Assembly: GCA_009778065.1 (NCBI GenBank)
Contig: WRKM01000021.1
Location: 1-61,635, forward strand
Source: Oscillospiraceae bacterium
Lineage (GTDB): Bacteria > Bacillota > Clostridia > Oscillospirales > Ruminococcaceae
Direction of reading: 5' to 3'
Length of the DNA: 61,635 nt
Part shown: positions 1 to 59,903 of the stretch, piece after piece
Layout of the letters: every line of letters starts with the position of its first letter
How positions within the stretch are numbered: position 1 is the first letter of the stretch
Notes under the pieces: model-generated
Databases searched by the model: none
What the model was told of the DNA's origin: nothing
Seen by the model: only the letters and a program-made list of their open reading frames with translations
Program-made: the position numbers and the translations under genes

Positions 1-1922
1 TCGAAGAAAAAGAGGGAATAAAGCTGTATGCTATTGTTCCGCTCATGATTGCGCCTGTGCTTAGGCACGCTATGCGGACTTTTGAAATGCCGCAGGGTGT
101 TTTAGATTCGATGTTTGCCAACGTCACAGCGGGTACTGCCGCTATAACCACAGCGGCAACAGCAGGAACAGCCGCGACAACTACAGCCGCAACAGCAGGA
201 ACAGCCGTAACCACCACAGCGGCAACGGCAGGGACAGCGGCAACAACCACCGCCGCAACAGCAGGGACGGCGGCAACTACCACAGCCGCAACCGCAGGGA
301 CAGCGGCGACCATAACAACCGCCACCACAGGCGCGGCTATAAGCGTAAAAACAATTATAGCGGCAGTCGTAGGCGCGGCAGTTGTGACGGGCGGCATAGT
401 TACCGCCGTGTTGCTCACAAACACAGAAGAAGAAATCCCCGCAGTCGCGCCTGTCGTGACTACGGAAGAAGCACCTATTATAACTACGCCCGAAATTATT
501 GAGGAAGAAACCACGCCCGAAGAAATCACGCCCGAAGTCGAAGCGGTAGAAATCGAAATAGAATTAAACGGGCAGGGTATAACAAACGAAAGACTTGTTG
601 AACTAATCGCAGACGGCACAATTACTCATGACGTTACACACCTAAAACTAATGAACAACCAAATAAGCGACTTTTCCCCTGTTATGGAATTACCGAATTT
701 AATACACTTGGATATATGCGGTAATCCTATAGACGATTATATGATTTTAAAAAGTTTACCGAATCTTACGGAATTATGCTTGACAACAAATAATTACTCT
801 CAAATATCCGAATTTACTAACTTAACATTATTAGGCTTAGTGGAATGTGAAATAAGTGATGTAAACGATGTAATTTTTGTTGGCGAATTGCCTAACTTAA
901 AAACTCTTTGGTTGCAAAATAACCAAATCAGCGACATATCAGCTTTGAGCGGATTAGAGAGTTTAACGGAATTAGGATTAGGCGGGAATCAAATCAGCGA
1001 CATATCAGCTTTGAGTGGGCTGACAAATTTAACGACTTTATATTTATGGGAAAATCAAATTAACGATATATCGCCGTTGAGCGGATTGAATAATTTAGAA
1101 ACTCTTTGGTTGCAAAATAACCAAATCAGCGACATATCAGCTTTGAGCGGATTAGAGAGTTTAACGGAATTAGGATTAGGCGGGAATCAAATCAGCGACA
1201 TATCGGCTTTGAGCAGGTTGATTAATTTAGAAAGATTAGCTTTAGGTGAAAACCAAATCAGCGATATATCGCCTTTGAGCGGATTGACTAACCTTGAAAT
1301 TTTATACTTAAGTAATAATCAAATCAGCGATATATCGGCATTGAGCGGGCTTACGAACTTGACATTTTTAACTTTGTATTCTAATCAAATTAGCGATATA
1401 TCGCCTTTGAGCGGATTAATTAATTTAGAAGAATTAGGTTTACATGAAAACCAAATTAGCGATATATCGGCGTTGAGTGGGTTAATTAATTTAGAAGCAT
1501 TATATTTATATCAAAACCAAATTAGCGACATATCGGCGTTGAGTGGGTTAATTAATTTAGAAGCATTATATTTATATCAAAACCAAATTAGCGACATATC
1601 GGCGTTGAATGAGCTGACAAATTTAATGACATTATATTTATGGGGAAATCAAATTAGTGATATATCGCCTTTGAGCGGGTTGTCAAATCTTGAATTTTTA
1701 GACTTAAGCATAAATCAAATCAGAGATATATCTGCTTTGGGTGGGTTAGAGAGTTTAACAGAATTAAGTTTAGGAGACAATTCTCAAATCAGCGATATAT
1801 CGGCGTTGAGTGGGCTGACTAATCTTGAAATTTTACATTTATGGAATAACTGGCAAATTACGGGTTCGCAAATTGATAACCTACAAGCCGCTTTACCAAA
1901 TTGCAAATTTATTTTCGAGTAA
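1..1922 (+). CDS. Membrane-tethered ECF-type sigma factor with LRR ectodomain, 5' end cut by window
   Basis: The reading frame is open from base 3, upstream of the first ATG (45), and its first residues (EEKEGIKLYAIVPLMIAPVL) match the segment just after sigma region 4 in the complete homologue at 7155-9287. The gene therefore continues leftward and the sigma domains lie outside the window. Numbered from base 45, residues 28-89 are six 11-residue Ala/Thr repeats, 97-124 form one hydrophobic transmembrane segment, 125-170 are acidic and Thr-rich, and about 175-625 are internalin-like 22-residue LRRs with the pattern NQISDISxLSGLxNL. The expected topology is sigma domain inside and LRR outside. 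A secreted LRR gene starts 68 bases downstream and a TIR gene follows, probably as one operon. That the LRR senses an external signal and controls the sigma factor is inference. Confidence 0.85.
   Translation, partial: EEKEGIKLYAIVPLMIAPVLRHAMRTFEMPQGVLDSMFANVTAGTAAITTAATAGTAATTTAATAGTAVTTTAATAGTAATTTAATAGTAATTTAATAGTAATITTATTGAAISVKTIIAAVVGAAVVTGGIVTAVLLTNTEEEIPAVAPVVTTEEAPIITTPEIIEEETTPEEITPEVEAVEIEIELNGQGITNERLVELIADGTITHDVTHLKLMNNQISDFSPVMELPNLIHLDICGNPIDDYMILKSLPNLTELCLTTNNYSQISEFTNLTLLGLVECEISDVNDVIFVGELPNLKTLWLQNNQISDISALSGLESLTELGLGGNQISDISALSGLTNLTTLYLWENQINDISPLSGLNNLETLWLQNNQISDISALSGLESLTELGLGGNQISDISALSRLINLERLALGENQISDISPLSGLTNLEILYLSNNQISDISALSGLTNLTFLTLYSNQISDISPLSGLINLEELGLHENQISDISALSGLINLEALYLYQNQISDISALSGLINLEALYLYQNQISDISALNELTNLMTLYLWGNQISDISPLSGLSNLEFLDLSINQIRDISALGGLESLTELSLGDNSQISDISALSGLTNLEILHLWNNWQITGSQIDNLQAALPNCKFIFE
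126..311 (+). repeat. 33-bp tandem repeat coding Ala/Thr linker
   Basis: Six in-frame copies of a 33-base unit encode 11-residue repeats of the form TAATAGTAATT. They sit between the cytoplasmic sigma part and the transmembrane helix of the sigma-LRR protein. The same repeat occurs in the second sigma-LRR gene at 8358-8567. A change in copy number would alter linker length without breaking the frame. Confidence 0.85.
899..1612 (+). repeat. Recently duplicated 66-bp LRR units
   Basis: Each LRR is 66 bases (22 residues). A three-unit block starting at 901 recurs almost unchanged 198 bases later (1099), and the unit starting near 1481 is repeated nearly identically at 1547. Near identity at the DNA level shows recent in-frame expansion within the ectodomain rather than old divergence. 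Confidence 0.8.
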
Positions 1923-1990
1923 CGTCAAATGTATTGTTAATAATCGCAGTTTTGCGATTAAATAAAATTTAAACAAAGGAGCTTAACAAC

Positions 1991-2563
1991 ATGAAAAAGT
2001 CAAAAGTAACAGCACTCATCTTGGCAATGGCAATGGCGATAAGCCTATTCACAATTCCCGCAAGCGCGGAAAATCTCACGGCGGCAGACGCATTAGCCGT
2101 CCTCAAACACGTTGTAGGAACACAATTACTTTCGTCCGAGCAAATGACAAAATACGGTTTCACTGATGAAAAAGCAATCACTTCCGCAGACGCTCTTTCT
2201 ATCTTAAAAAAGGTTGTAGGAACGACCGACACCCCAACATCTGAGCAAACAACTACACCCGAAGCCATCCCCGAATACATAACAATTAAAGGTGTTCAAT
2301 ACAGCACTTCGCTTGATTACCTTAATTTACGAGGCGAGGGGTTAACGAATGATGATATAAAGCCTTTACAGTACATGGTAAATTTGACGGTGTTAGATTT
2401 GTGGGCTAATGAAATTAGTGATGTTTCTCCACTCTACTCGTTGCGTAATCTACAAATGTTAGACCTTCAACGCAATCCCGTAAGTGACGATGCAATACGT
2501 GAACTTACGAAAAATTTGCCGGGTGTGTTAATTATGAGTGACAGTGTTTTTATTTTAACGTAA
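1991..2563 (+). CDS. Secreted dockerin-like/LRR protein
   Basis: This 190-residue protein has a typical signal peptide (MKKSKVTALILAMAMAISLF, then cleavage near ASA). Residues about 28-75 hold two short helical motifs of the form AADALAVLKHVVG that resemble dockerin or dockerin-like repeats but lack clear calcium-binding aspartates. A Thr-rich linker follows, then two to three LRRs. The ribosome site AAAGGAG ends 9 bases before the ATG. The first 150 or so bases and the upstream leader are almost identical to those of the gene at 6120-7076, so the two are duplicates. It lies 68 bases after the sigma-LRR gene and 18 bases before the TIR gene. It may compete with or feed the sigma-LRR ectodomain, which is inference. 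Confidence 0.8.
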   Translation: MKKSKVTALILAMAMAISLFTIPASAENLTAADALAVLKHVVGTQLLSSEQMTKYGFTDEKAITSADALSILKKVVGTTDTPTSEQTTTPEAIPEYITIKGVQYSTSLDYLNLRGEGLTNDDIKPLQYMVNLTVLDLWANEISDVSPLYSLRNLQMLDLQRNPVSDDAIRELTKNLPGVLIMSDSVFILT

Positions 2564-2581
2564 AACAAAGGAGCAAATCAA

Positions 2582-3526
2582 GTGAGTAACGGAGAAAAAA
2601 ACGTCAACTACGCTGATACATATGACATTTTCTTGTCCTACAGGCGGGACGGCGGCGAAGCTATGGCTATACTGCTCCGCGACCGCTTGACCGAAAAGGG
2701 GTTTAAAGTCTTTCTTGACATAGAAAATCTCAATTCGGGTAGTTTTAATACAAAACTGTTTGACGTAATCGACAATTGCAAAGACTTCATCTTGATTTGC
2801 TCAAAAGGCGGTTTAGACCGCTGTGTACATGAGGGCGATTGGGTGCGTTTGGAAATTGCACACGCTCTCGAAAAGGGCAAAAACATAGTCCCTGTCATGC
2901 TTAGAGGGTTCGAGTTCCCCGATGTACTCCCTGCCGATATTGAACCCCTGCGTATGCAAAACGGCGTAAACGCTAACAGCCACGAGTATTTCGATGCCGC
3001 GATTGAGCGACTTTCGGACAAGTTTCTGACAAGCAAGCCGCAATTTATGTCCGAAATACCCGAAATGTCGGAGCGGCTTCGAGAACTCGTGAGCCAAAGC
3101 GTTAAGCCAAACCCGAAAAAACGTATTGCAAAAGCATTTACGGCGGTTTTCGCTGTACTGCTTGCCGCCGTAATCGCTGCTTTTACGTTTTTGAGCAGTA
3201 AACAAGAGCAAACGGAAATCATCATCTATAATAACACGCCCGACACGATTCACAGCATACAGCTTAAACGCTCCGACCGCGCGGAGTGGGGGGACAACAT
3301 AGTCACGGAGTTTCCGCTAATTTCGGGCGAAACGGTGAGCGTTATGATTCCGATTAAAGATATGGCGGTAGGCGTTACTTATGATATGGAATCTATCTTT
3401 TACTTCGGCGATACTACGAGTACTTTCTCGCTTAGCGGGTTCTCGATGTATGAGTTGAGCGGAATTGTGGTGTTTGTTGATGAGGATAGCGGGGGGTATG
3501 AGAGGGAGTTTTTGAGGGGGGAATAA
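2582..3526 (+). CDS. TIR-domain protein with single transmembrane segment
   Basis: A TIR domain spans about residues 12-150: beta-A motif DIFLSYRR at 15-22, and a DWVRLEIAHAL stretch in which W87 and E91 occupy the place of the conserved Trp and putative NADase Glu of bacterial TIR domains. One transmembrane helix lies at about 185-205 after a basic stretch (KKRIAKAF), and about 105 residues follow outside, of unknown fold. The start is GTG, chosen because AAAGGAG sits 10 bases upstream. It closes the left three-gene set behind the sigma-LRR and secreted LRR genes. Bacterial TIR domains commonly hydrolyse NAD+ in defence systems; whether this one does is inference. Confidence 0.85.
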   Translation: MSNGEKNVNYADTYDIFLSYRRDGGEAMAILLRDRLTEKGFKVFLDIENLNSGSFNTKLFDVIDNCKDFILICSKGGLDRCVHEGDWVRLEIAHALEKGKNIVPVMLRGFEFPDVLPADIEPLRMQNGVNANSHEYFDAAIERLSDKFLTSKPQFMSEIPEMSERLRELVSQSVKPNPKKRIAKAFTAVFAVLLAAVIAAFTFLSSKQEQTEIIIYNNTPDTIHSIQLKRSDRAEWGDNIVTEFPLISGETVSVMIPIKDMAVGVTYDMESIFYFGDTTSTFSLSGFSMYELSGIVVFVDEDSGGYEREFLRGE

Positions 3527-5303: not shown

Positions 5304-5446
5304 TCTTTTACTTTCCTTTCATTTTCTGCCCAGTAGTTTTCGGGAAATTTGGGCATAGGCGGAGCAGGCTTATTGAGGATTTCAATAAGACGGTCAGCCG
5401 CTTTGTCGTCAATGACTATATTCTTGTGAAATGTTGATGTTGCCAT
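5261..5446 (-). CDS. Small antitoxin-like protein paired with GNAT
   Basis: A 61-residue protein (N-terminus MATSTFHKNIVIDDKAADRL) with a predicted helix ending in EILNKPAPPMP, similar in shape to the C-terminal part of small antitoxins that precede GNAT toxins in Firmicutes, and a charged tail rich in Lys. GGGAGG sits 7 bases before the ATG. The gene overlaps the GNAT start and has a near-perfect promoter just upstream. No clear ribbon-helix-helix is visible, so the antitoxin role rests mainly on arrangement. Confidence 0.65.
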   Translation of the reverse strand: MATSTFHKNIVIDDKAADRLIEILNKPAPPMPKFPENYWAENERKVKEWLSRSKKQSSEKK

Positions 5447-5478
5447 GAATTCGCCTCCCGTTTTGGTTTCTTAATAAT

Positions 5479-5507
5479 AGTATACCGCTTTTTATGGCAA
5501 ATGTCAA
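5479..5507 (-). promoter_or_regulatory. Sigma-A promoter of the GNAT toxin-antitoxin pair
   Basis: Read on the minus strand: TTGACA (5507-5502), a 17-base spacer, then TATACT (5484-5479), 33 bases before the antitoxin start codon. Confidence 0.85.
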
Positions 5508-5540
5508 CAAGATTTTCTCGGCATTTTTTTCTTCGCTATT

Positions 5541-5720
5541 ATCTATGCCTTTTTCTATGCCATCTATGCCATTTTCTATGCCATTTGTGTCATTATCTAT
5601 GCCATCTATGCCATTTGTGTCATTATCTATGCCATCTATGCCATTTTCTATGCCATCTATGCCATTTTCTATGCCTTTTGTGTCATTTTCTATGCCATCT
5701 ATGCCATTATCTATGCCATA
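5541..5720. repeat. Minisatellite of CTATGCCAT-type units
   Basis: About 180 bases are made of alternating 9- and 12-base units (CTATGCCAT and variants such as CTATGCCATTTT and TGTGTCATT). Reading frames through it on both strands are open only because the repeat has no stops. The minus-strand frame also covers the promoter of the GNAT pair, so I do not treat it as a gene. There are no spacers, so it is not a CRISPR array. Confidence 0.8.
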
Positions 5721-5736
5721 TGACATAGATAAATCA

Positions 5737-5865
5737 TCATGATTGATATTTTTCAACCTCCGCCCAATTCTCCGGAAACCCGATATGCTTTAACTGTATG
5801 TAGTCGCCGTACTCCTCGATTAAGGCTTCAAGCTGTACCGTAAACGAGGTATACCAATGAACGCC
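5737..5865 (-). pseudogene. Remnant of an Abi_2-family abortive infection gene
   Basis: The minus-strand frame ending at TGA (5739-5737) reads HWYTSFTVQLEALIEEYG, then DYIQLKHIGFPENWAEVEK. The closing GFPENW motif is characteristic of the C-terminus of Abi_2 (AbiD/F-like) proteins. Only about 40 residues remain and no start or upstream domain is present. The minisatellite adjoins its end. Confidence 0.7.
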
Positions 5866-6119: not shown

Positions 6120-7076
6120 TTACCATACTTCACAATTCGGTAAAGCGGCTTGAATTTCTTTCTGAATAGAATAAGCTATATCACCATAATCATAATATCT
6201 ACCAATCGGGTCTACTTTTCCGAGAGTTATGTATAAATTTTCTAAATTTGTTAAGCCTTTTATCACAGTAAAATCGGTAATTTTATTATCGGAAACAGAT
6301 AAAGAAGTTAGATTTTTAAGACCGCCAATCGGTGTTAAATCACTAATATTATTGCTCCACAATCCCAATGCTTTTAAATTAACTAACCCGCTAAGTGGAG
6401 ATATATCGCTTATAAAATTATTTTGCAAAAGTAAGTATTCTAATTTTACTAATCCTTTTAGCGGAGTTATATCTTTAATTAAACCCTCATCAAAATAAAT
6501 AATATTATTAGGGTTAACACCCCACTTTCCGTCTGCTCTTTGTATAAAAATGTCACCATTTTCCAGGTCTTCATCAGATTTAAAAACCCCAACTGCTACA
6601 TTTCTCAAATCTAAATATTCTAAATTCGTCAATCCGCTGAGAGGGGATATGTCGGTGAAAGGGTTATCATAAAGACCGAGTTCAGTTAAACTTGTCAGCC
6701 CTTTTAATGGCGTGAGGTCGCTGATAAAATTTGAGTTTAAATTTAGAGATGTCACATTCTGCGGAATTTCGCCGTTTCTTACCATTTCTGCTAATTTGCT
6801 GTCTGTTATGCCCTGCTCGCTTAAATCAATCTCAACTGCGTTAAATCCTACTACAGCCCTAAGAACTGCAAGGGCATGAGCGGCGGTTACTTCTTGATTT
6901 TCTTCATAACCGTATTTCGCTCGCTGTTCTGTTGTGAGTTCTGCTGTCCCCGCAACGTGTTTAAGAATTGCCAAAGCGTCTGCCGCCGTGAGGTTTTCCG
7001 CACTTGCGGGAATCGTGAATAGGCTTATCGCCATTACCATTGCCAAGATGAGTGCTGTTACTTTAGACTTTTTCAT
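6120..7076 (-). CDS. Secreted dockerin-like/LRR protein (second copy)
   Basis: I start this 318-residue protein at the ATG at 7076, where AAAGGAG and a leader nearly identical to that of the gene at 1991 are found; an in-frame extension to 7151 has no such support. A signal peptide (MKKSKVTALILAMVMAISLF) is followed by two dockerin-like helical motifs (AADALAILKHVAG and AHALAVLRAVVG), then about eight LRRs of the form ISDISPLSGLVNLKAL. A non-LRR insertion (about GDIFIQRADGKWGVNP) interrupts the array in the middle. It lies downstream of the complete sigma-LRR gene, matching the layout at the left edge. Confidence 0.85.
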   Translation of the reverse strand: MKKSKVTALILAMVMAISLFTIPASAENLTAADALAILKHVAGTAELTTEQRAKYGYEENQEVTAAHALAVLRAVVGFNAVEIDLSEQGITDSKLAEMVRNGEIPQNVTSLNLNSNFISDLTPLKGLTSLTELGLYDNPFTDISPLSGLTNLEYLDLRNVAVGVFKSDEDLENGDIFIQRADGKWGVNPNNIIYFDEGLIKDITPLKGLVKLEYLLLQNNFISDISPLSGLVNLKALGLWSNNISDLTPIGGLKNLTSLSVSDNKITDFTVIKGLTNLENLYITLGKVDPIGRYYDYGDIAYSIQKEIQAALPNCEVW

Positions 7077-7154
7077 GTTGTTAAGCTCCTTTGAATTTTT
7101 TATTTTACCGCCTGTTTGACGGCAATTACCTTGTTTAACAGAGTTATCCAATAT

Positions 7155-9287
7155 CTAAGAAGAGGGGGAAGAACTGGAGATTATGACGTTGTCAACGTCA
7201 ATCGTATAATTTCCAAGAAAAACGGAATAGCCGACTATAATAATCACTTCTGCTTCTTTTGAAAATTCATCTAATTTCTCGCTGTCGTCAGATATAGGAT
7301 TACCGTCTATTCTCAATTCAAATAGTTTAGACAAGGATAGAAGCGGAGATAAATCACTAACTTGGTTATTGTCTAAATTTAAATTCGTTAGGTTAGTAAA
7401 TCTTGATATTACTGATAAATCGCTGATTTTATTATTTGCTAAAACTAAGTTTTCCACCTGCATAAATTTAGTTAAATTCAATAGAGGGGACAGGTCGCTG
7501 ATTTCGTTCCCGCTCAAAGATAACATTTCTATATTTATTAAGCCGCTAAGTGGTAATAGGTCGCTGATATTATTACCGCCTATGCTTAATTCCGTTAAAT
7601 TTGTCAAACCGCTAAGTGGTGATAGGTCGCTGATATTATTACGACTTACATCTAACACCGTTAAATTTGTAAAACCGCTAATTGTTGACAGGTCGTTGAT
7701 TCGATTTCCTGATAAATTTAATTCCGTTAAATTTGGCAAATCGCTAAGTGCCGACAGGTCGGTGATTCTATTTCCTGTTAAATCTAATTTTGTCAGATTT
7801 GTCATATTAGCAAGCGGTTCTATATGTGCATTGGTAAGCTGTTGACCGGATAAAGAAAGCTCTGTCAAACTTGCGCTGTATTCTATCCCTCTTATTGTTA
7901 TAGAATCGGTCTGAACAGGTTCGGGCGGCGGGAGCGGTTCGCCCTCTGTCACGCCGCATATTGCACAAGTTTTCGGCTCTTCAAGAGTAGCTTCAAGCCA
8001 TTCATGCTCTAAAGGTTCGCCCTCGGTTATTCCGCATAATGTACAAGTTTGGGGTTCTTCGCAAGTAGCTTCAAGCCATTCATGCTCTAAAGGCTCGCCT
8101 ACGATTTCGCCGCACTCTAAACAAGTTTGAGGTTCTTCACAAGTGGCTTCGCTCCATTCGTGCTGACATTCGGGTTCAGATATTGTGACCTCGGGTGTGG
8201 TTATAATAACCGCTTCTTCCGTAGTCACGACAGGCGCGACTGCGGGGATTTCTTCTTCTGTGCCTGTGAGCAACACGGCGGTAACTATGCCGCCCGTCAC
8301 AACTGCCGCGCCTACGACTGCCGCTATAATTGTATTCGCGCTTATAGCCGCGCCTGTGGCGGCGGTTGTTATGGTCGCGGCTGTTCCTGCTGTTGAGGCG
8401 GAAACCGCCGCGGTGGTAGCCGTTGCCGTCCCTGCTGTTGCGGCTGTGGTAGTTGCCGCTGTCCCTGCTGTTGCGGCTGTAGTAGTTGCCGCCGTCCCTG
8501 CTGTTGCGGCTGTGGTTGTCGTTGCTGTCCCTGCTGTTGCCGCTGTGGTAGCCGTTGCTGTACCTGCCGATACGGTGGCTACGGTTGCGGCTTCGGCGGT
8601 TATGCTTAAAGCACCTATGATTTTTCCGAGTAAGTTTGCGGGGACTTCGGAATTATTCATAGCCATTTTAAGCATGGGAATAAGTATAAGCGGCGTACCT
8701 AAGTATAGCTTTAAGCCCTCATTATTTTCGAGTTGCTCTAACTCTGTGCGGATTTTATCACGCGCTAAGGCAAGGCGGGTTTTTATTGTGTTTTCACTTA
8801 CGGCTAATTGCTCCGCTATTTCTTTAACCGAAAGTTGCTCGTAATAATAGTAATAAACACATACTTTTTGCGGTGTCGGGAGTTTGTCGATAATCTCAAC
8901 AATCAGCCGCGCCGTTTCTTCATCGTCCGCTTTTAATTCGGGGATTAACTTTCTGTCGGTTTCTTCGATAAATTCTGCGACAGTTTTTTCTTCCGCTCCC
9001 GAAACGGACAGCATATTATTTTTTCGGAGAATTTCATTACACTTGTTGACGGCTATTCTATTGAGCCATGCGGAGAACGCTTCGGGGTTTTCGAGTTCCG
9101 AAAGTTTTTGGTATACTATAATAAATATCTCTTGCGTAACGTCCTCTGCTTCTTCGCGGTTCTTCATCATTTTCAGCGCGAGGAAATAAACCGACTTTAC
9201 GTAATCGTTGTAAAGCGTTTCAAAGGCTTTTGTATCGCCGTTTTGTGCAGACTTAATGATTTCGGACAAGCTGTTATTATTTTCCAT
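7155..9287 (-). CDS. ECF-type sigma factor fused to transmembrane segment and LRR ectodomain
   Basis: The complete version of this architecture, 710 residues from the ATG at 9287 (AAAGGAG 14 bases upstream; a TTG 60 bases earlier is less likely). Residues 22-90 are sigma region 2 (EEAEDVTQEIFIIVYQ), 135-185 are region 4 with its helix-turn-helix (SVKEIAEQLAVSENTIKTRL), 192-210 are hydrophobic, 240-310 are Ala/Thr repeats, and 314-341 form the transmembrane helix. Outside are three 26-residue repeats of the form HEWxEATCEEPxTCxxCG (374-452; the third lacks the first Cys) and LRRs at about 470-665. Sigma regions 2 and 4 should bind core RNA polymerase and promoter DNA. Membrane tethering with ectodomain-triggered release is inference. 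Confidence 0.9.
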   Translation of the reverse strand: MENNNSLSEIIKSAQNGDTKAFETLYNDYVKSVYFLALKMMKNREEAEDVTQEIFIIVYQKLSELENPEAFSAWLNRIAVNKCNEILRKNNMLSVSGAEEKTVAEFIEETDRKLIPELKADDEETARLIVEIIDKLPTPQKVCVYYYYYEQLSVKEIAEQLAVSENTIKTRLALARDKIRTELEQLENNEGLKLYLGTPLILIPMLKMAMNNSEVPANLLGKIIGALSITAEAATVATVSAGTATATTAATAGTATTTTAATAGTAATTTAATAGTAATTTAATAGTATATTAAVSASTAGTAATITTAATGAAISANTIIAAVVGAAVVTGGIVTAVLLTGTEEEIPAVAPVVTTEEAVIITTPEVTISEPECQHEWSEATCEEPQTCLECGEIVGEPLEHEWLEATCEEPQTCTLCGITEGEPLEHEWLEATLEEPKTCAICGVTEGEPLPPPEPVQTDSITIRGIEYSASLTELSLSGQQLTNAHIEPLANMTNLTKLDLTGNRITDLSALSDLPNLTELNLSGNRINDLSTISGFTNLTVLDVSRNNISDLSPLSGLTNLTELSIGGNNISDLLPLSGLINIEMLSLSGNEISDLSPLLNLTKFMQVENLVLANNKISDLSVISRFTNLTNLNLDNNQVSDLSPLLSLSKLFELRIDGNPISDDSEKLDEFSKEAEVIIIVGYSVFLGNYTIDVDNVIISSSSPSS
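8358..8567 (-). repeat. 33-bp Ala/Thr linker repeats, second gene
   Basis: Tandem 33-base units encode the 11-residue AATAGTA-type repeats between sigma region 4 and the transmembrane helix. There are about six units, slightly more degenerate than those at 126-311. Confidence 0.8.
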
Positions 9288-9597
9288 ACCGTGTTTATTA
9301 TCTCCTTTGTAGCGTGGGTTTTTTCGCCCGCTGTAATAACCCCTCAATAATAATGATGAAAAAAGAGCGGCTTAGGTTTTATTTTCAGAGAATTATTTTC
9401 TCAAAAAAGAAATATTTGTTAATTATACACATATATCGACTGTTATAGTTCTGTATTTTGTATATTATTCCTTGGGTATTTTTGTAAAATCCATTGTTAT
9501 AATTATATCACGATTTATAAATGATTGTCAATACACTAATTAAAATATTACCTAAAACCGTCTTTTGTGCTGTATAATCTATAAAAGAGGTGGAAAT
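9288..9597. other. Divergent promoter region of sigma-LRR and HTH genes
   Basis: This AT-rich stretch separates the minus-strand sigma-LRR gene from a plus-strand regulator. TATAAT at 9573-9578, 20 bases before the regulator's ATG, is a good -10 box but lacks a clear -35. I could not identify a convincing ECF-type promoter for the sigma-LRR gene. Confidence 0.5.
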
Positions 9598-9888
9598 ATG
9601 ATTAACGGATTAGCGGCGCGAATTAAACAAGAGCGTAAAAATATGCACTTATCTCAAAAGCAATTAGCGGACAGACTGAGAATACACAAGTCAAGCGTTA
9701 ATGCGTGGGAAAGCGAAAAGACACAACCGAGCCTGATATATCTGATAAAACTGTCGGATATATTCAGCGTTACGACTGATTATCTTCTCGGCATTAAAAT
9801 CACGAAGCAACTTAACGTCAGTAACATTTCCGATACAGACGTTGGAGCGATTCAGACTGTGATTGACAGCTTGAAGAATAAAAAATAA
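9598..9888 (+). CDS. Cro/CI-family transcriptional regulator
   Basis: A 96-residue XRE protein starting at the ATG at 9598, preceded by AGAGGTGG. Residues 4-62 form the helix-turn-helix domain (LSQKQLADRLRIHKSSVNAW, then SLIYLIKLSDIFSVTTDYLLG), typical of Cro/C1 repressors. The tail of about 30 residues is short and probably dimerises. It is a single gene with a strong terminator just after it. The terminator and following sequence are shared with a second regulator gene at 17425. Its target is unknown; the divergent sigma-LRR gene is a candidate. Confidence 0.85.
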   Translation: MINGLAARIKQERKNMHLSQKQLADRLRIHKSSVNAWESEKTQPSLIYLIKLSDIFSVTTDYLLGIKITKQLNVSNISDTDVGAIQTVIDSLKNKK

Positions 9889-10075: not shown

Positions 10076-11098
10076 ATGGTGAATAATTCCGAAATTATTA
10101 TATATCAATCAGCAGACGGATTATCGAAAATTGATGTTCGCTTTGAGGGTGAAACGCTTTGGCTTACGCAGGCGCAAATCTCTGAGTTGTTCGGACGCGA
10201 GAGGTCGGTAATTACAAAGCATTTGCGAAACATTTTTGAAGAGGGCGAGCTTGACGAAAAAAGCAATGTGCAAAGTTTGCACATTGCAAATTCAGATAAG
10301 CCCGTGAAATTTTACAGCCTTGACGTTATTCTCGCCGTAGGTTATCGCGTGAAATCGGCGCAAGGAACACTATTTCGGCAATGGGCGACTGCGGTTCTGC
10401 ACGAATACTTACAAAAAGGCTTCGCAATGAACGACGAAAAGCTGAAAGAGTTCGGCGGTGGCGATTATTGGTACGAGTTGCTTGAGCGTATCCGTGACAT
10501 TCGTTCAAGCGAAAAGGCTTTGTACCGTCAAGTCTTGGATTTGTATGCAACGAGCGTAGATTATAATCCCAAGAAGCCCGAAACTTTTGAGTTTTTCAAA
10601 ATCGTGCAGAATAAAATGCACTTCGCCGCTTCAAAACACACAGCCGCAGAGTTAATTTATGAACGCGCCGACAGCGAACAACCGTTCATGGGGCTTACGA
10701 CTTTCAAAGGCTCACGTCCGCGAAAAACCGACATTGACACCGCAAAGAACTACATGACAGAAGATGAATTGTTCGTGTTAAACCGCATTGTATCGGCATT
10801 TTTCGATATTGCGGAGTTAAAAGCACGGCGGCACGAGCATATGTATATGCGCGAATGGATTGCAGAGCTTGATAAGTTCACAAGCAGTTACGGCGAGGGG
10901 ACTCTTGTAGGTTTTGGTAATGTTTCGCACGAAGCGGCATTGGATAAAGCTAACACCGAATATTTGAAGTACAAGCGTAAGACCGCTGACGAGTTGTCGC
11001 CTGTTGAACAGGAATATTTCAAGGTGATTAAAGAAACACAGAAAAAAATTGAACGTAAAAATTCTTCTGATACAAGAAAGGAACCCCACCAACCATGA
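10076..11098 (+). CDS. RhuM-family protein
   Basis: A 340-residue protein matching the virulence RhuM family (named from Salmonella SPI-3). The N-terminal half carries the winged-helix-like DNA-binding segment (LTQAQISELFGRERSVITKHLRNIFEEGEL) and the family signature VKFYSLDVILAVGYRVKSAQGTLFRQWAT. The C-terminal half contains AELIYERAD and YMTEDELFVLNRIVSAF motifs. Molecular function of the family is not established; members are common on genomic islands. AAAGGA precedes the ATG. The stop codon overlaps the ATG of the CPBP gene by 4 bases, so the two are translated from one message. Confidence 0.85.
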   Translation: MVNNSEIIIYQSADGLSKIDVRFEGETLWLTQAQISELFGRERSVITKHLRNIFEEGELDEKSNVQSLHIANSDKPVKFYSLDVILAVGYRVKSAQGTLFRQWATAVLHEYLQKGFAMNDEKLKEFGGGDYWYELLERIRDIRSSEKALYRQVLDLYATSVDYNPKKPETFEFFKIVQNKMHFAASKHTAAELIYERADSEQPFMGLTTFKGSRPRKTDIDTAKNYMTEDELFVLNRIVSAFFDIAELKARRHEHMYMREWIAELDKFTSSYGEGTLVGFGNVSHEAALDKANTEYLKYKRKTADELSPVEQEYFKVIKETQKKIERKNSSDTRKEPHQP

Positions 11099-11870: not shown

Positions 11871-12911
11871 ATGAGGGGTTTTGATTATTCCTTTTTGGAA
11901 CATGGAATGTTGCCTGCGGGGCTTGTAAATATAGTCGGAGCAATCAGCGAATTGCGGGAGCGTGAAAAAAAGCTGAAAAAGGACTACGGCGAGGTTTTCG
12001 TTAAAATGGAAAGCATCGCAAAAGTGCAGTCTGTTAAAGGTTCTAACGAAATTGAGGGCATTGTTACAAGTGAACAGCGTATTAACGAAATTGTCAACCA
12101 AAATAGCCCGCCGCTGAACCATAACGAAGCGGAAATCGCCGGTTATCGCGACGCGCTTGCACTAATCCACGAAAACGCCGACACGCTTGATATTCGTGAA
12201 CACGACATACTGCGTTTTCACGAAATTATGCTGTCATATTCGCCCGTAAGCGGCGGGGCATACAAAGAAACCGATAACGTCATTATGGAAACTGTAGGCG
12301 GCGTCAGGCGTGTCCGTTTTGAGCCAACCCCCGCCGCCGAAACTGCTGAAACAATGGAACAATTGATTTTGGCGTATATGGACGCGCGGAGTAATTACGG
12401 CATAAATCAGCTTTTGCTGATTCCTTGCTTTATTCTGGATTTTCTTTGTATTCACCCTTTTACTGACGGAAACGGCAGAATGTCACGGCTTCTCTCGCTT
12501 TTAATGCTGTACAAAAACGGCTTTGATGCGGGAAAATATATCTCGTTTGAAGAGCAAATCAACCGTACCAAGACGGAGTATTACGCCGCCCTTAAAGATA
12601 GTTCTTTGCTTTGGCACGAGGGGGAAAATACCTATTTCCCGTTTATCACAAACTTTATAACAACGCTTTTGTTCTGTTATAAAGAGCTTGATAAGCGGTT
12701 TGCGGTCGCGAGCAGCAAGAAAGTGACAAAGCGTGAACGCATTGAAAACACTGTCTTGAACAGTCTTTTGCCTATCTCAAAACAAGAAATCTGCTACATT
12801 CTCCCCGATGTAAGCCCAACCACGGTTGAAGCCGCGCTTTCCTTAATGGTTAAAGGCGGCTTGATTCAAAAAGTCGGCACGGCAAGAAACACGAAGTATA
12901 TAAAAAAGTGA
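11871..12911 (+). CDS. Fic-domain AMP-transferase-like protein with winged helix
   Basis: A 346-residue Fic protein. The catalytic motif HPFTDGNGRMSR (195-206) is intact, with H195 as the catalytic base. An inhibitory-helix motif S58-xxx-E62-G63 lies N-terminal to the core, so this is a class II, self-inhibited Fic enzyme. Residues about 285-345 form a winged helix (SKQEICYILPDVSPTTVEAAL). Such enzymes usually transfer AMP from ATP to hydroxyl groups of proteins. The ATG is preceded by AGGAGTGAGAAGTT. It is a single gene under its own operator-rich promoter. Confidence 0.9.
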   Translation: MRGFDYSFLEHGMLPAGLVNIVGAISELREREKKLKKDYGEVFVKMESIAKVQSVKGSNEIEGIVTSEQRINEIVNQNSPPLNHNEAEIAGYRDALALIHENADTLDIREHDILRFHEIMLSYSPVSGGAYKETDNVIMETVGGVRRVRFEPTPAAETAETMEQLILAYMDARSNYGINQLLLIPCFILDFLCIHPFTDGNGRMSRLLSLLMLYKNGFDAGKYISFEEQINRTKTEYYAALKDSSLLWHEGENTYFPFITNFITTLLFCYKELDKRFAVASSKKVTKRERIENTVLNSLLPISKQEICYILPDVSPTTVEAALSLMVKGGLIQKVGTARNTKYIKK

Positions 12912-59162: not shown

Positions 59163-59903
59163 ATGGCAACGGATAATACCGCATTATTCCTTAAATACAA
59201 AGAAACCCGCGACGTTGAGATACGTAATGAGCTGGTTCTCATTTATATGAATGTCGTTAAATATGTCGCTGTGTCGCTCAGAAACACCTACGCTAAGTAC
59301 GGCGACTTTGACGATGTTGTTAACGAGGGTGTTATCGCGCTGATTAGTGCGGTGGAAACCTTCGATACCGAAAGAGGCGTTAAATTTGAGACCTATGCGA
59401 ATCTTAAAATAAAAGGCGCGATTATTGATTATGTCAGAAAGCAGGACTGGATTCCCAGACAGGTGAGACGCTTCAGCAGAGAGCTTGACGATACCTATAA
59501 CGCACTTTACACAGAACTCGGACGCTCCCCCTCAAACAATGAAATCGCAGAACGTATGGGGCTTACGAAAGAAAAATTTGCTAAAAATATGGCAGACGCG
59601 GCGAGTACTACTACCCTGTCGTTTGAAGAACTGCTCTATGAAGATAACTTCGGTAACGTAGATAATATCGGAAACGAGGTAGACAGGGGAATATATGAGC
59701 AGGAACTAAGAAAGGTAATAGCAGGAGCAATCGACGCGCTGAACCCTAAAGAAAAACAGGTTATTTCTCTGCACTATTACGAAAGGCTGAAATTCGTGGA
59801 AATCGCGAAAGTAATCGGCGTTTCGGAATCGAGAGTCTGTCAGATTCATTCAAAATCAATGTTGCACCTTAAAAGAAGATTAGAAGATTATATTAAAATG
59901 TGA
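59163..59903 (+). CDS. fliA: Flagellar sigma factor FliA/WhiG type (sigma-28)
   Basis: A 246-residue sigma factor lacking region 1.1. Region 2 (VNEGVIALISAVETFDTERGVKFETYA) and KGAIIDYVRKQDWIPRQVRR, region 3 (LGRSPSNNEIAERMGLTKEK) and region 4 (LKFVEIAKVIGVSESRVCQI) are intact. It directs late flagellar genes such as flagellin, and is normally held by FlgM. GGGGTGAAATA precedes the ATG. flhF and flhG, which usually precede it, are absent here. Confidence 0.94.
   Translation: MATDNTALFLKYKETRDVEIRNELVLIYMNVVKYVAVSLRNTYAKYGDFDDVVNEGVIALISAVETFDTERGVKFETYANLKIKGAIIDYVRKQDWIPRQVRRFSRELDDTYNALYTELGRSPSNNEIAERMGLTKEKFAKNMADAASTTTLSFEELLYEDNFGNVDNIGNEVDRGIYEQELRKVIAGAIDALNPKEKQVISLHYYERLKFVEIAKVIGVSESRVCQIHSKSMLHLKRRLEDYIKM

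Follow-up and report, generated by a model that had tools for sequence, protein, structure and literature searches.

Candidate single-pass membrane receptors with sigma factor and TIR heads in an Oscillospiraceae genome

The 61,635-nucleotide stretch analysed here (the window) spans the entire contig C21 (WRKM01000021.1) of an Oscillospiraceae bacterium, whose genome assembly (GCA_009778065.1) comprises 2.55 Mb in 43 contigs. It encodes an extracytoplasmic function (ECF) sigma factor that is joined through a transmembrane (TM) helix to a leucine-rich repeat (LRR) ectodomain, and this sigma-TM-LRR arrangement within one polypeptide is real and recurrent. Membrane-anchored proteins with a SARM1-like TIR domain are encoded in the same genome. 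With moderate confidence we read these proteins as single-pass membrane LRR receptors with exchangeable cytoplasmic outputs, in which the tethered sigma factor would be freed by proteolysis and the TIR head would cleave NAD+.

A sigma factor and an LRR ectodomain in one polypeptide

The complete sigma-TM-LRR gene of the window lies on the minus strand at 7155-9347 (730 amino acids as listed; the likely start is the ATG at 9287). Its ECF sigma domain (8730-9287, minus strand) contains regions 2 and 4, which were recognised by Pfam (Sigma70_r2, E 1e-13; r4_2, E 7e-14; both over the cut-off) and by comparison with the SigW structure (E 3e-18). The hydropathy profile gives one TM helix at residues 340-358 (8274-8330, minus strand), and the protein carries internalin-like LRRs. 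A second complete copy of 591 amino acids, in which Sigma70_r2 and r4_2 are likewise both over the Pfam cut-off, is encoded on contig C25. The original prediction had described a direct sigma-membrane-LRR fusion and had placed its full-length representative at 7155; both statements were confirmed. No match to a zinc-finger (ZAS-type) domain was found by Pfam in the window copy (E 0.01) or in the C25 copy (E 0.001). The window copy has one C1_1 match below threshold (residues 396-416), located past the TM helix on the outer side.

Upstream of the gene a consensus sigma-A promoter (TTGACA-18-TATAAT, 12/12 matches) is present at 9502-9531 on the minus strand, which is consistent with a receptor that is made before its signal arrives. 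Promoter-like sites show no overall excess in the region (30 observed vs 25.5 ± 4.8 in shuffled sequences). A helix-turn-helix gene is divergent from the sigma gene at 9565-9888 (recognised by eye), and the same arrangement was noted at L021:1020-1382 (Pfam HTH_3). Downstream, a secreted LRR protein is encoded at 6120-7151 on the minus strand, separated from the sigma gene by 3 bases from its listed TTG start or by 78 bases from its likely ATG at 7076. Elsewhere in the window a weak sigma-like open reading frame (ORF) of 246 amino acids at 59163-59903 scored 31 bits against the sigma profile.

Tethered sigma factors in Clostridia

A total of 106 sigma-plus-linker homologues were collected from the 7,999 candidates with most words in common, and 105 of them have a TM helix at residues 215-430. 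LRR_4 is present in 15, and in 14 of these the TM helix precedes the LRRs by pattern. Three proteins that fail this pattern, one sigma protein and two of the TIR proteins described below, do contain a TM helix, the LRR pattern being unmatched. The sigma head occurs in 18/197 genomes of the family (E 1e-25, 40 places) and in 27/394 genomes of the order (E 1e-30, 37 places), and no stop interrupts it at any place (40/40 and 37/37). The distinct sigma places number 75; the sequences of about 200 amino acids in G203, G227 and G245 and a fragment on contig C42 are outside the locus set, and locus L179 (G286) yielded no sigma ORF in the ORF list used. Within the 68 loci, 75 sigma ORFs were found. 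All 70 that exceed 300 amino acids have a TM helix and the five shorter ones lack it; the latter are excluded from the counts of tethered sigma factors (n=70). The segment before the TM helix carries the higher net charge in 55/70, with nine ties and six opposite cases, which indicates that the head is inside. The ectodomains are variable and include LRR_4, LRR_5, PF19789 (which we take to be DUF6273), DUF5050 and others; these four are also carried by TIR heads.

Separate anti-sigma genes did not emerge from the neighbourhoods. No same-strand gene starts within 250 bases downstream of 31/70 tethered sigma factors, and 39 downstream neighbours remained, one of which, itself a tethered sigma factor, was not included when the neighbours were scanned with Pfam. 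Among the 25 listed of the 52 Pfam families matched in the 38 scanned neighbours, no anti-sigma family occurred in at least two.

The sensor domain is common to a local non-sigma gene for 8/70 tethered sigma factors, where a randomly chosen other locus gives a mean of 0.68. A ninth match (L143) was discounted, since it hits a piece of another tethered sigma factor, and as G113 and G192 belong to the same genus, the independent cases number about five. For the window sensor the best local match is the truncated sigma-LRR gene at the left end of the contig (gene 1), with further matches within ORF 6120-7151 and in the secreted LRR gene next to gene 1 (gene 2). At L145:524-3649, L152:202-2983, L142:3784-5618 and L160:5073-11553, a tethered sigma factor has as neighbour a gene with the same sensor whose product is secreted, lipoprotein-like or membrane-anchored. 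A general rule that each tethered sigma factor has its sensor repeated in an adjacent secreted protein was rejected, since this was seen in a minority only.

These neighbours raise the possibility of substrate or surface sensing as in SigI/RsgI, where the ectodomain would copy the binding domain of secreted proteins that the sigma factor induces and the TIR gene would be a loosely linked passenger. Secreted LRR genes adjoin sigma-TM-LRR genes twice in the window, and in G272, G016, G133 and the pair G113/G192 (one genus) the sensor is also found in a local protein that is secreted, lipoprotein-like or membrane-anchored. There is also precedent, in that the RsgI6 sensor resembles a xylanase (PMC4711584) and RseP cleaves RsgI within the TM helix (PMC12203970). 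Nevertheless, 61/70 tethered sigma factors have no local non-sigma gene with the same ectodomain, and a TIR gene with one and the same ectodomain recurs beside sigma-TM-LRR genes (C25 and three pairs of equal-size contigs, see below) more than would be expected of a passenger. We consider this explanation possible but rather doubtful.

The three genes at the left end of the window

The original prediction concerned three genes on the plus strand, and the ORFs were confirmed at 3-1922, 1991-2563 and 2582-3526, separated by 68 and 18 bases. Gene 1 (3-1922) is truncated at its 5' end by the contig end, and the 639 amino acids seen comprise the segment that follows sigma region 4, an Ala/Thr linker, a TM helix and an LRR ectodomain. 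The linker between sigma and TM is encoded by a 33-bp tandem repeat at 126-304 (plus strand), the TM helix was predicted by a Kyte-Doolittle scan at residues 118-136 (354-410, plus strand), and the LRR_4 matches are strong (E 2e-89). The same Ala/Thr linker and TM helix are found in the complete copy at 7155-9347. Of the predicted sigma-TM-LRR structure the TM and LRR parts were thus recovered, while the sigma domain lies beyond the contig end. Likewise, neither a stop nor a frameshift, either of which would have separated sigma and LRR, occurs within the part of gene 1 present on the contig, the sigma side being off it.

A candidate for the missing part is contig C42 (4,705 bases), which terminates in a sigma region-2 fragment of 104 residues. 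The first 50 amino acids of gene 1 align best with residues 186-232 of the sigma-TM-LRR protein P0008, and the top relatives of the C42 fragment are P0014 (149 bits) and then P0008 (148 bits). Because both contig ends match P0008 best or nearly best, C42 is a plausible other half of gene 1; that the two contigs fit a single gene with about 80 codons unassembled is plausible but unproven. C42 further carries FtsK-type and replication-protein genes, so that the neighbourhood may be a mobile element. One could also take gene 1 for a broken leftover, a copy left truly headless as sigma-TM-LRR genes duplicate and recombine. The absence of the head from the contig fits this, as does a head-swap remnant in a TIR gene on C25 that speaks for recombination. 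Yet the ORF stays open to base 3, the conserved post-sigma segment is intact, and C42 terminates with a sigma fragment that matches, with P0008 being the best relative of the C21 start and the second of C42, so that we regard a broken gene as quite improbable.

Gene 2 (1991-2563, plus strand) encodes a predicted secreted LRR protein of 190 amino acids with an N-terminal hydrophobic signal (residues 6-24) and an LRR_4 match (E 9e-9). These features agree with the predicted secreted dockerin-like/LRR protein, while its dockerin part found no backing: Pfam gave no Dockerin_1 match at E 0.01 in gene 2 or in ORF 6120-7151, and the degenerate duplicated dockerin-like motif of gene 2 was recognised by eye. 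A tandem repeat of short units (12-42 bp) at 5409-5756 reads as an ORF rich in Gly, Ile, Asp and Asn.

TIR proteins and other heads

Gene 3 (2582-3526, plus strand; 314 amino acids) encodes a TIR protein (TIR_2, E 8e-14) with one TM helix at residues 186-204 (3137-3193, plus strand) by hydropathy, as the original prediction of a membrane-anchored TIR protein had it. The TIR domain (residues 14-153; 2621-3040, plus strand) is SARM1-like (E 9.4e-31 to the SARM1 TIR in a phmmer search of the PDB), and the PDB sequences that it matches at E 0.001, 19 in number, all belong to SARM1 or tir-1. Its putative catalytic Glu91 (2852-2854, plus strand) lies in a DWVRLE motif aligned to DWVHKE of SARM1, and the aligned residue is what we take to be the catalytic Glu of SARM1. 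Glu91 is invariant in 12/12 sequences of TIR alignment A1, and 110 of the 120 TIR homologues studied (the best 120 of 601) show a looser W..E pattern. The conserved Glu suggests that gene 3 may encode an NADase, although such a Glu, frequent in NADase TIR groups, is not necessarily tied to activity (PMC7075850). A single TM helix at residues 130-240 is present in 100 of the 120 homologues, and in 96 of these 100 the net charge before the helix exceeds that after it, which again indicates that the head is inside.

The ectodomain of gene 3 (3194-3523, plus strand) comprises about 110 amino acids with a 'YNNT' motif, as delimited by alignment. It is common to the first TIR protein of C25 and to the homologues P0154, P0161, P0163, P0164, P0166, P0169 and P0174. 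No LRR match was found in it by the Pfam scan. A search for its family with region 150-314 of gene 3 recovered two proteins, one of which is gene 3 itself.

LRR_4 is present in 21 of the 120 TIR homologues, and 19 of these 21 show the TM-before-LRR pattern. One of the 21 is encoded by the source genome on contig C3 (L025:7755-9416 = C3:105752-107413, minus strand) and unites TIR, TM and LRR in one chain of 553 amino acids; one comes from a named genome (locus L046). By eye, the C3 gene is flanked by signal-peptidase-like and GTPase-like housekeeping genes and the similar gene of L046 lies within a run of housekeeping genes. The suggested resemblance to the parts of Toll and NLR receptors is strengthened, as regards Toll, by the C3 protein; the TIR of gene 3 has a non-LRR ectodomain of its own. 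Further heads were found in the same genome: two kinase-TM-LRR proteins are encoded on C26 and C19 (L024:6777-9476 and L139:1666-3465), and a 350-amino-acid protein on C34 has a TPR-like head (by eye, no Pfam match), a TM helix and LRRs.

A SARM1-like TIR with its Glu kept would also suit anti-phage defence by abortive infection, with the TIR as an NAD+-depleting effector whose expression the sigma-LRR protein would raise on envelope or phage contact. The window TIR gives weak PADLOC matches of ThsB, SAVED-TIR and TIR-Argonaute type (21-31 bits), RhuM and Fic genes lie further along the window, and the presence of ECF sigma genes near other bacterial conflict systems is on record (PMC8195603). 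However, the best curated match, Thoeris ThcB4, reaches 45 bits where the cut-off requires 220, and identity with Thoeris (ThsB/ThcB4) was rejected accordingly. Five other window proteins were scanned with PADLOC; no Thoeris partner was among them, four had no defence-partner match and the fifth was RhuM-like. The left side of the locus lies off the contig. Furthermore, an outward-facing ectodomain would, to our knowledge, be unusual among phage-sensing TIR effectors. On balance we hold a role in phage defence to be unlikely. The RhuM-family (PADLOC PDC-S05) and Fic-family genes are located close to the sensing genes, at 10076-11098 and 11871-12911.

Head exchange and pairing of sigma and TIR genes

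On C25 a TIR-TM gene, the sigma-TM-LRR gene and a second TIR-TM gene (TIRb; L022:9559-10587) follow each other on one strand, so that a sigma-TM-LRR gene again stands beside a TIR gene with the ectodomain of gene 3. The coding start of TIRb shows a 79-nt DNA match to the 5' end of the sigma gene, with 67 identical positions by hand count of the alignment. The ribosome-site stretch AAAGGAGATATTTCAAA ahead of TIRb also precedes the sigma gene (20/21 nt identical). The simplest account of this start is a head exchange, copied from the neighbouring sigma gene.

Outside the source genome, sigma and TIR homologues fall on metagenome contigs of equal size (9,045, 10,768, 14,525 and 279,505 bases). 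The comparison included 61 contig sizes above 5 kb for sigma and 61 for TIR; four equal sizes were observed against a mean of 0.12 with jittered sizes, and none of 20,000 trials reached four. Below 5 kb a further equal size (2,828) was seen and one TIR contig (3,213) was left out. Location on the same contig is read solely from these sizes, and the 279,505 pair need not be neighbours. The TIR proteins of the three smaller contigs carry the ectodomain of the window TIR and that of the 279,505 contig does not. A sigma-TM-LRR gene is thus probably located beside a TIR gene with the same ectodomain on these three contigs. In the family survey, the window-type TIR occurs in 5/197 genomes and together with the sigma head in one, the source genome. 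The order sample contains a further 26 genomes with the sigma head, and no TIR was detected in them, in a search that had no positive control. In the genomes sampled the two heads thus meet in the source genome only, and the pairing is probably real but confined to a narrow group.

Proposed mechanism

In the receptor reading that we favour, the N-terminus would be inside, the C-terminus outside and one TM helix between them. Gene 1, like the copies at 7155-9347 and on C25, would encode an ECF sigma factor whose own TM helix keeps it at the membrane, with an internalin-like LRR domain reading a ligand outside. Binding would most likely lead to proteolysis near or in the membrane, of the site-2 protease type. 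The freed sigma domain would then transcribe a regulon of few genes, among them probably the adjacent gene for a secreted LRR protein and perhaps also the TIR gene. Proteolytic release is proposed for the sigma heads because the closest examples, IutY and, by proposal, ECF52, act that way. An M50 protease is encoded by the source genome, as by 14/14 control genomes. Gene 3 would encode another receptor built in this way, whose SARM1-type TIR would cleave NAD+ once its ectodomain is engaged or clustered. The genome would thus use one layout of head, TM and ectodomain with several exchangeable heads.

Several findings weigh against this reading. The sigma domain of gene 1 is absent from the contig, where the ORF runs open into the end, and no word of at least 16 bases from the first 200 bases of C21 recurs in C42. 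A target promoter was not identified. A secreted gene follows 16/37 tethered sigma factors compared to 124/457 for the reference (p 0.056), from which we make no claim, and most tethered sigma factors lack the local non-sigma partner with the same ectodomain (61/70, see above). Among the matches listed, no tethered sigma factor was found within flanks of up to 8 kb around 79 TIR loci of named genomes (from the best 80 of 230 relatives), three of which have an untethered sigma ORF nearby. The three-gene order, considered as a conserved unit, was seen in no relative sampled.

A wider version of the receptor reading is conceivable, though we put it forward tentatively and would not expect it to hold in full. 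The genome would possess a repertoire of LRR surface receptors with interchangeable heads (ECF sigma, SARM1-type TIR, Ser/Thr kinase, TPR-like) that are swapped by recombination. The sigma factor would be the transcriptional and the TIR the enzymatic arm of one surveillance system. Such a repertoire would correspond in function to Toll receptors and plant LRR kinases, within one prokaryote.

Relation to known systems

Fusions of a sigma factor, a TM segment and a sensor are already known as such. ECF48, ECF52 (SCO4117) and ECF53 of Actinobacteria are tethered sigma factors with a zinc-finger anti-sigma-like domain (PMC8999054). ECF52, which is described as restricted to Actinobacteria, has a TM helix and an outer carbohydrate-binding domain, and its proteolytic release was proposed (PMC8999054, PMC5826349). 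The window and C25 copies resemble them in carrying, by hydropathy, a TM helix and an outer domain C-terminal to sigma. They differ by their occurrence in Clostridia, the Ala/Thr linker, the LRR or other ectodomain and the lack of a zinc-finger match between sigma and TM. IutY of Pseudomonas putida (ECF243) combines sigma and a membrane-bound anti-sigma in one protein and is activated by proteolysis through Prc and RseP (PMC8999054); it belongs to iron cell-surface signalling and has no LRR sensor.

SigI/RsgI of Clostridium thermocellum shares with the proteins described here a single-pass sensor with an outer binding module and sigma output, and RsgI is cleaved by RseP (PMC4711584, PMC12203970), after which ClpXP degrades the fragment at XAA sites (PMC12203970). 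In SigI/RsgI, however, sigma factor and sensor are separate, with an anti-sigma and CBM, PA14 or GH10 sensors (PMC4711584), whereas here one protein bears an LRR sensor. The sensors that resemble a local protein are comparable to RsgI6 and Xyn10D (PMC4711584), as a minority feature here.

Plant LRR receptor kinases have LRRs outside, one TM segment and a kinase inside. SARM1, to which the TIR of gene 3 is alike in sequence with the Glu aligned, has SAM and ARM domains, which gene 3 lacks; gene 3 is instead tethered to the membrane with an ectodomain. A link of the SARM1 TIR to bacterial TIRs was already known (PMC13142454). Toll-like receptors likewise have LRRs outside, one TM segment and a TIR inside (PMC7075850), and this set is united in one chain by the C3 protein, not by the LRR-free gene 3. 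The order is reversed here to TIR-TM-LRR, with an N-terminal, SARM1-like head and internalin-like LRRs. The resemblance to Toll and plant receptors would likely be due to convergent assembly.

Searches of an open-access library, which excludes most subscription journals, gave no report of bacterial sigma-TM-LRR or TIR-TM-LRR proteins. In this scope the following appear to be new to us: an LRR sensor carried by a tethered sigma factor, a family in Clostridia whose ectodomains are swappable, TIR and kinase heads that share this layout within a single genome, and the trace of a head swap. The membrane-tethered sigma factors known to us are few (ECF48/52/53 and IutY; PMC8999054), and to these is added a Clostridia family with swappable sensors, some members of which stand beside TIR receptors of the same layout. 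The TIR-TM-LRR chains offer a bacterial model for joining LRR sensing to TIR output across the membrane. Should the heads prove exchangeable in practice, a single ectodomain could be combined with several outputs for testing.

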